Source of the DNA: Porphyromonadaceae bacterium FC4
Lineage (GTDB): Bacteria; Bacteroidota; Bacteroidia; Bacteroidales; Porphyromonadaceae
Assembly (NCBI GenBank): GCA_900120395.1
Contig: LT635553.1
Coordinates: 1,036,254-1,100,253, forward strand
Direction of reading: 5' to 3'
DNA: 64,000 nucleotides
Part shown: piece after piece, positions 3,722 through 52,890 of the stretch
How the letters are laid out: each line of letters begins with the position of its first letter
Numbering within the stretch: position 1 is the stretch's first letter
Position numbers and translations under genes: made by a program
Notes under the pieces: model-generated
Database searches by the model: none
Told to the model about the DNA's origin: nothing
The model's input: only the letters and a program-made list of their open reading frames with translations

Positions 3722-3812
3722 AAAAAGTTTCCCGTAGGAAACAGATCTCTACTATCCGTCAAATCGTTTTCTTTCCTACTGGAAACATTTCCCTTCTATC
3801 CGTCAAATTTTC
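3722..3812 (+). repeat. Dispersed hairpin repeat, copy 1
   Basis: Two tandem 44-bp units. The first hairpin reads GTTTCCCGTAGGAAAC and the second TTTCCTACTGGAAAC; each is followed after about 8 variable bases by CTATCCGTCAAAT. A flank CCACCCCTCCCTGAGCG follows, and at 3840-3860 there is a further partial copy of the left flank (GTGACGTGTACTGG plus an A run), so a second, truncated element may lie downstream. It lies between divergent genes. Confidence 0.9.
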
Positions 3813-21265: not shown

Positions 21266-21273
21266 CAAAGGTA
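21266..21273 (-). promoter_or_regulatory. PBP promoter -7 box
   Basis: Minus strand reads TACCTTTG. It lies about 60 bp upstream of the PBP start codon; no clear -33 TTG is seen. Confidence 0.55.
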
Positions 21274-21304: not shown

Positions 21305-21681
21305 GAGCACATAGCTGCACCCACGCATTTGAAGTTTAGAGGTAGTCGGTGGGGTCTTTGGTGCCATTGATCTTTTGCAGAGTCGCGAGGGCTGACGTGT
21401 ACTGAAAAAAGTTTCCAGTAGGAAACAGACCTCTACTATCCGTCAAATCGTTTTCTTTCCTACTGGAAACTTTTCGCTACTATCCGTCAAATTTTCCACG
21501 CCTCCCTGAACGGCAAAAATAGGGAACTTGATGCCTTGTCGTCTACCTTAGTTCGTCCCACATACGGTACTTGATCTCATAATTGATGATAAAGTCCGGC
21601 TCCTCCTCCGTAAAGTCATAATGCTCAGCCCCCACCGACTACTTCTAAACTTCAAATGCGTGAGCCCTTGAGCACATAGCT
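21305..21681. mobile_element. MITE-like unit carrying repeat copy 4
   Basis: The unit is bracketed by a perfect 12-bp direct repeat GAGCACATAGCT (21305-21316 and 21670-21681), which looks like a target-site duplication. Just inside are inverted repeats of 33 bp (21322-21354 and 21630-21662) that match at 32 of 33 positions. The interior holds the two-unit hairpin repeat and about 130 bp of tail, and no open frame for a transposase. It is therefore non-autonomous if mobile. The 5 and 7 bases between the inverted repeats and the direct repeats do not match each other. Confidence 0.65.
21405..21495 (+). repeat. Dispersed hairpin repeat, copy 4
   Basis: Plus orientation with left flank GACGTGTACTG plus A run. 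The first hairpin has AGTA and the second TACT, so the two hairpins are inverted relative to each other. The hairpins start at 21411 and 21455, giving the 44-bp period. It lies inside the MITE-like unit. Confidence 0.9.
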
Positions 21682-43524: not shown

Positions 43525-43668
43525 GTCAACTTTTTTCAGTACACGTCACTGCTGTAGAGGAAGTTACCTAGAGGTAAAAAGTTTCCTACTGGGAACCCTT
43601 CTCTTCTATCCGTCAAATCATCTTCTTTCCTACTGGAAACAGGTCGCTTCTATCCGTCAAATTTTTTG
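43525..43668 (+). repeat. Dispersed hairpin repeat, copy 7, with inverted flank
   Basis: Core at 43575-43668, plus orientation, TACT loops; the first stem has a G-T pair (GTTTCC...GGGAAC). Upstream at 43527-43552 lies the reverse complement of the left flank seen at 21.4 and 36.8 kb (CTTTTTTCAGTACACGTCAC). The right flank TTTTTTGCACAGATCCGGAG matches copies 2 and 9. The locus therefore looks like a head-to-head rearranged pair. It lies between divergent genes. Confidence 0.85.
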
Positions 43669-52670: not shown

Positions 52671-52890
52671 GGGGCGTACATGTGTACTAAAAAAGTTTCC
52701 TACTGGAAACAGATCTCTACTATCCGTCAAATCATTTTCTTTCCTACTGGAAACATTTCCCTTCTATCCGTCATTTTTTTTCACCCCTCCCCGAGCGGAA
52801 AAAATAGTTTGATGCCTTGTAATCCTCCTTAGTTCGTCCCCCATGCGGTACTTGTAAACTTCAAATGAGTGAGCCCTGGGGGCGTACATG
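52671..52890. mobile_element. Repeat-carrying unit flanked by a 12-bp direct repeat
   Basis: A perfect direct repeat GGGGCGTACATG (52671-52682 and 52879-52890) brackets repeat copy 8 plus a tail. The tail (TTGATGCCTTG, CCTTAGTTCGTCCC, CGGTACTTG, then AACTTCAAATG and GTGAGCCCT) is the same as in the 21.3 kb unit, except for an internal deletion of about 60 bp. The left inverted repeat of that unit is absent here. Both units end GTGAGCCCT directly before their direct repeat. Confidence 0.6.
52690..52780 (+). repeat. Dispersed hairpin repeat, copy 8
   Basis: Plus orientation, two 44-bp units, TACT in both loops. Right flank CACCCCTCCCCGAGCGG. It lies between the tandem genes recF and ispF, which are both on the minus strand. 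Confidence 0.9.

Follow-up and report, generated by a model that had tools for sequence, protein, structure and literature searches.

A composite ISAs1-like miniature element in a Porphyromonadaceae bacterium and its possible preference for sites just upstream of promoters

Background

A short unit in the genome of Porphyromonadaceae bacterium FC4 raises the question of how a hairpin repeat comes to be scattered through a bacterial genome, and what decides where the copies of its carrier come to lie. The stretch of DNA analysed (referred to here as the window, 64,000 nucleotides, G000:C4:1036254-1100253) belongs to a 2.12-Mb genome in 4 contigs. The best three named relatives of its RNase G are those of Porphyromonas sp., P. 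levii and P. somerae (71-74% identity in the best segment). A first-pass annotation had read the unit at 21305-21681 as a non-autonomous transposed element, and had proposed that this would explain how the hairpin repeat within it spreads.

Results

Layout of the unit

The features of the unit and its surroundings are collected in Table 1. The perfect 12-bp direct repeats reported around it are indeed exact on both sides (GAGCACATAGCT). As the duplication typical of the family is 10 bp long, and both tips of the window copy are decayed, the 12-bp repeat of this copy appears to combine a 10-bp duplication with chance matches beside the decayed left tip. The inverted repeats, originally given as 33 bp with one mismatch, form the core of longer ones of 36 nt (21322-21357 and 21627-21662, 94% complementary). 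Between them, where it had been placed, lies the hairpin repeat, its 19-nt arms at 21407-21425 and 21456-21474 being 100% complementary. The unit had also been described as free of coding frames. This holds for intact ones (no ORF of at least 60 aa was found inside 21305-21681), but not for remnants, as the minus strand carries a 31-codon methyltransferase relic.

Table 1. Features of the unit and its left flank in the window
Feature	Position	Strand	Remarks
Left direct repeat	21305..21316	+	apparently 10-bp target duplication plus chance extension; AGCACATAGC 10/10 at both sides
Left terminal inverted repeat	21316..21357	+	outermost tip decayed; family consensus CAGGGCTCACGCATTTGAAGTTTAGA
IS3-family-like end TGACGTGTACTGAAAAAAGTT	21393..21413	+	cut-off point of many copies
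Hairpin repeat core	21407..21495	+	two 44-bp units; 19-bp perfect stem
Relic, last ~31 codons of Eco57I-type (type IIG) DNA methyltransferase gene	21546..21638	-	
Right terminal inverted repeat	21627..21669	-	outer tip AAGGGCT
Right direct repeat (target duplication)	21670..21681	+	
Candidate promoter -7 box TACCTTTG (TAnnTTTG)	21266..21273	-	starts 42 nt outward from the element's left end
Putative penicillin-binding-protein (PBP) gene, 792 aa	18827..21205	-	downstream of box TACCTTTG

A family of copies with target duplications

If the unit is a transposed element, its terminal sequence should recur elsewhere in the genome, and this is the case: a 19-nt terminal repeat has 48 matches in the own genome (at most 3 mismatches), the reversed pattern having 0. 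These matches represent 33 loci, 15 with two matches and 18 with one. Core matches of at least 90 nt to the 377-bp unit number at least 40 in the own genome, a lower bound, as 40 of 274 first-look candidates were scored and a further remnant of the element (L234) lies outside these 40. The copy set analysed here (n=43) is made up of 39 fetched core matches, the window copy and three loci with terminal-repeat matches only. With boundaries assigned against a 408-nt reference (L033), 16 of the 43 copies have both ends and 12 have the right end and are cut off on the left.

By this boundary method, a clear duplication flanks 13/16 two-ended copies and 2/12 of the left-cut copies with a right end; only 0.17% of 1806 mismatched pairs score as high. 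Under fixed geometry, and with L042 added, a target duplication of at least 8/10 bp is found in 14/17 two-ended copies against 0/272 mismatched pairs, and the duplicated sequences differ from site to site. The three copies below this threshold are L029, L036 and L024, the last of which has a longer, displaced duplication (19/21). Mismatches within the duplications of the 14 copies comprise 8 transitions and 1 transversion, a transition-rich pattern as for old insertions, which these may be. One of the two duplicated left-cut copies (L053) lies within the window itself, at 52682-52877, with an 11-bp direct repeat (GGGGCGTACAT).

Given 48 matches against none, and 14/17 duplications against 0/272, the terminal repeat is not a chance pattern. 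Terminal inverted repeats, a target duplication, many copies and the lack of a transposase gene in them are all present, so that the original reading stands: the unit at 21305-21681 is one member of a multi-copy family of non-autonomous transposons (MITEs). In the named relatives L072, L073 and L074, the stretch adjoining rng was inspected by eye and no PBP gene was seen there, the neighbourhoods differing from that in the window.

A composite element

Read from its left end, the element opens with a terminal repeat and a spacer whose length varies. An IS3-type tip (TGACGTGTACTGAAAAAAGTT) and the hairpin repeat follow, then, on the minus strand, the 3' end of the methyltransferase gene, and the second terminal repeat closes the unit. 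The IS3-type tip is found in 11/38 genomes of the family (at most 2 mismatches), and in G008 an inverted pair of it flanks an IS whose gene has an rve domain; both ends of this IS (L188) share, with mismatches, the 21-bp tip at 21393, as in the IS3-family elements (IS150-like) of Porphyromonas. Unlike these elements, the unit holds only one such end, which does not move the two-ended copies.

Host DNA is joined directly to the tip in 12 copies (L025, L026, L027, L030, L032, L035, L037, L040, L045, L049, L051 and L054), and in nine other copies the left part is reduced to 8, 27, 28, 53, 55, 66, 77, 80 or 92 nt, always ending at the tip. In our reading, these left-cut copies arose by IS3-type adjacent deletions, which would account for their being mostly without a duplication. 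A 30-bp match in G009 proved to be an IS3-type tip. At 43528-43548 of the window there is an isolated IS3-type end (TGACGTGTACTGAAAAAAGTTGACACTCC), apparently left over from an IS3 element.

Seven plasmid records match the methyltransferase relic (31 aa), with 68-72% identity and a best E of 1e-4; four of the seven are Synechocystis records of one kind. The relic aligns with the extreme C-terminus of an 1100-aa pSYSX protein of Eco57I type (type IIG). All matches to the relic in the own genome (28/28, E up to 10) lie within MITE copies. A second coding-like piece (KKRALAALQKINATK...) was rejected as a protein, having no plasmid match and no alignment above shuffles in 3 proteins.

The hairpin repeat and its other carriers

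An 18-mer of the hairpin repeat has 308 matches genome-wide (162 + 146, at most 3 mismatches; control 0), from which we infer about 150 two-unit hairpin copies in the genome. Nine of these are in the window, at 3749, 10781, 18595, 21433, 24570, 36883, 43603, 52717 and 60406. The MITE accounts for roughly a quarter of the estimated 150. Among 47 hairpin copies sampled off the MITE matches, 46 have no MITE sequence on either side and one (L234) keeps a remnant of the MITE's left part. The proposal that the element explains the spread of the repeat is therefore correct only in part: the MITE does carry the hairpin repeat, but as one carrier and not as its sole vehicle. By eye, many hairpin copies outside the MITE have another surrounding in common, CTGATAAACAGATAGATA on the left and GGATCCGGAGCGAAAAA on the right, perhaps marking a second intergenic repeat family. 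In the hairpin loop (21412-21474 of the window, and other copies), either AGTA or TACT stands between identical GTTTCC/GGAAAC arms, as though part of the copies had their 4-nt loop inverted.

Kinship of the ends and the search for a transposase

The consensus tips of the family begin with CAGGGCT. Elements of the ISAs1 family are described as having ends that begin with CAGGG, inverted repeats of 14-22 bp and a 10-bp direct repeat (PMC11946415), and ISArsp11 as having CAGGGCTGATGCAAAGTCG with a 10-bp repeat (PMC6305408). Both the CAGGG(CT) ends and the 10-bp target duplication of ISAs1 insertion sequences are found in the family described here, and CAGGGCTCACGCATTTGAAGTTTA has 22 forward and 20 reverse matches in the own genome (at most 3 mismatches; control 0). 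Ends and duplication length thus point to an ISAs1-like MITE. We use this term, rather than calling the element a member of ISAs1, because no transposase was found: unlike ISAs1 insertion sequences, the copies carry none, and the genome had none by one Pfam model.

A partner transposase with matching ends, the search for which had been proposed, did not come to light. No terminal-repeat pair encloses a transposase at the loci inspected, and a profile search with PF01609, which presumably covers ISAs1 transposases, gave 0 matches in the own genome, with 9/14 control genomes positive. No transposase was recognised by eye among the ORFs listed at two lone terminal repeats (C4:574059 and C4:1632844), nor at 7 loci with G005- or G001-type ends. 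Next to the relic at C4:1632844 (L162, 6840-6868), perhaps an old island end, are a helicase-like gene and an ORF cluster that includes Fic-like, RhuM-like and SIR2-like members (by eye). Among 38 genomes of the family, the terminal repeat (at most 3 mismatches) occurs in the own genome only. A search of 393 genomes of the order gave 3 matches beyond the own genome, one of which belongs to the G005 element described below; the other two, lying within leucine-rich-repeat-like coding sequence (by eye), were judged to be chance. Viral contigs had 0 matches to three exact patterns, and phages and plasmids had no DNA match.

Distance to putative promoter boxes

Distances to ORFs hinted that the copies cluster upstream of genes. 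The consensus of the main sigma factor in Bacteroides is TAnnTTTG at -7 (PMC7366714), and such a box, pointing outward and within 150 bp, is found on the left side of 23/42 copies (simulated mean 2.2, maximum 6) and on the right side of 12/42 (simulated mean 2.1, maximum 8). These 42-copy counts include cut-off copies; the promoter scans did not cover L162. The motif was picked after the flanks in the own genome had been viewed, so that replication matters.

When the copies of the own genome are aligned by their ends (51 ends of 34 copies, 3 ends being hand-placed), there are 22 outward boxes no more than 150 bp away, of which 12 start at 40-43 nt: those of L021, L023, L025, L033, L036 (both sides), L039, L040, L041, L044, L070 and the window copy. 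The highest count for a 4-nt window in 20,000 uniform simulations was 8, and six control motifs gave 0 at 40-43 for the same ends. The remaining 39/51 ends have no exact box at this distance. Among two-ended copies, 7/17 (L021, L023, L033, L036, L039, L041 and the window copy) have an exact box at 40-43 and 2/17 (L029, L056) at 34; a degenerate box at 42 can be seen by eye in L024 (one mismatch) and L043 (two mismatches), and the other 6/17 have no box near 42. Allowing one mismatch in the box brings little gain, and a TTTG-like motif at -33 is frequently absent. Base-by-base signals in the flanks are weak (0.25 bits at 47 and 0.27 at 58) because most ends have no box. From 11 to 41 nt out, the flanks of different copies are at most 53% alike, which indicates that they were not copied along with the element.

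The same distance in a second species

The single end found in G005, a genome of the same genus, by the terminal-repeat search of the 393 order genomes has TATATTTG at 42 in its flank (also at 26). With 101 bp of this first locus as query, G005 gave 21 matches, and G000 and G001 a single short one apiece; both G005 searches were made after the promoter-distance hypothesis had been noted. The G005 element, likewise a MITE and about 370 bp long, has related ends, a different interior and a strong hairpin of its own. Perfect 10-bp duplications (AGCACCCCTC, ATAAATACCT) are present at 2/7 loci with end patterns on both strands, loci at which the two ends may belong to different elements. Around its 23 distinct ends, 15 boxes lie no more than 150 bp out, of which 8 are at 42-45 (42, 42, 42, 42, 43, 43, 44 and 45) and 6 at 40-43, leaving 15/23 ends without an exact box at 42-45. 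Flank similarity is again at most 53%.

For the 74 ends of both genomes pooled, 18/37 boxes fall at 42-45, against a mean of 4.15 and a maximum of 9 in 20,000 uniform simulations. In a stricter set of 67 ends, which leaves out G005 tips without a final G as well as the 3 own ends positioned by hand, 17/32 boxes fall at 41-44 (simulation maximum 9). A minor group of 5/37 pooled boxes lies at 33-35. As a control, 28 distinct IS3-type ends have 5 boxes (at 52, 77, 138, 142 and 150), none of them at 40-45, and among 47 hairpin copies no 4-nt window holds more than 4 boxes, a loose control, since distances there need not run from true element ends. A fixed distance between insertion point and promoter box, judged by motif, is found at a minority of ends. 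In L265 (G005) and L036 (own genome), a -7 box lies 40-44 nt off on both sides, the insertion being midway between divergent boxes.

Discussion

We consider it probable, on the evidence of these alignments, that the element is an ISAs1-like MITE mobilised in trans, and that its insertions favour sites immediately upstream of promoters, at a fixed distance from the -7 box. A transposase would act in trans on the MITE ends and duplicate 10 bp of the target, and insertion would take place upstream of promoters such that TAnnTTTG begins 42 (+/- 1-2) nt from the element end. If, as seems likely, TAnnTTTG marks real starts in both species, a box at 42-49 would imply a start near 53, relative to which the duplication (1-10) would span about -43 to -53. 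The region from about -43 to -53 is the upstream edge of the RNA polymerase footprint. The transposase or a target-selector protein could be guided by promoter-bound RNA polymerase, or could read the promoter motif directly, and guidance to promoters would place insertions where genes stay unbroken. More specifically, RNA polymerase bound at main-sigma promoters might guide a DDE transposase, probably ISAs1-like, so that insertion takes place where the polymerase footprint ends upstream, in at least two species of the Porphyromonas group. We put this forward tentatively, as quite possible rather than probable.

Direct sequence targeting, in which the transposase or a partner protein would read TAnnTTTG some 32 bp beyond the duplication without RNA polymerase, overlaps with this explanation and seems to us possible but rather unlikely. 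In both species it is the box that sets the distance, as such a protein would have it, but direct reading needs enough tolerance to allow for the five boxes at 33-35 and for the boxless sites. Polymerase and motif are not separable as guides by sequence.

It is improbable that the element is an ordinary MITE inserting at random, with selection alone retaining copies in intergenic DNA upstream of promoters. Bacterial MITEs are usually intergenic (PMC10969869), and 0/43 copies lie within a longer ORF of at least 150 codons, although this is a weak test, as insertion itself breaks the ORF. Selection predicts broad distances, however, and not 18/37 boxes within 4 nt across two species; such a broad range is shown by hairpin copies outside the MITE, which are also often near such boxes. 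A guided transposase is the better reading, because selection would not be expected to hold the distance within 4 nt in both species. A reading of the unit as a structured repeat, regulatory or acting as RNA, that is retained for its function, with incidental duplications, is very improbable: the strong hairpin would fit, and a fixed promoter distance could suit a regulatory site, but 14/17 two-ended copies have site-specific 10-bp duplications, many copies are cut off on one side, and the only two Rfam matches are far below the gathering score and were taken as chance.

A guided transposase would be in known company. In yeast, Ty1 and Ty3 insert upstream of Pol III genes; Tn7 inserts at glmS through TnsD, which reads glmS; and IS5 reportedly inserts upstream of one operon, fucAO. 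The MITE resembles these in inserting near a transcription or gene landmark, and differs from them in being associated with many different main-sigma-type promoter boxes at one distance, and in that its guide is putative. A narrow search of the open-licence literature on promoter-targeted bacterial transposition, which leaves absence unproven, found neither an element family with a fixed promoter distance nor promoter-distance targeting by ISAs1. BrickBuilt of Porphyromonas gingivalis is likewise an intergenic MITE, with stem-loops predicted in its internal tandem repeats, and is described as having IS5-like ends (GAGACC) and short duplications (CT, GAAA, AAAAA) (PMC4596501). It differs from the present unit in both ends and duplication, GAGACC not being found at the ends of the latter.

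The composite MITE shows how a hairpin repeat and a fragment of a methyltransferase gene can ride along with a mobile element. If its insertion is indeed set by promoters, it would be a bacterial counterpart of Ty1/Ty3 targeting, and a promoter address at fixed distance would be a direct answer to the question of how transposons avoid killing dense bacterial genomes. Elements of this kind would then serve as natural promoter markers, and could offer a lead for insertion tools that spare promoters and genes.
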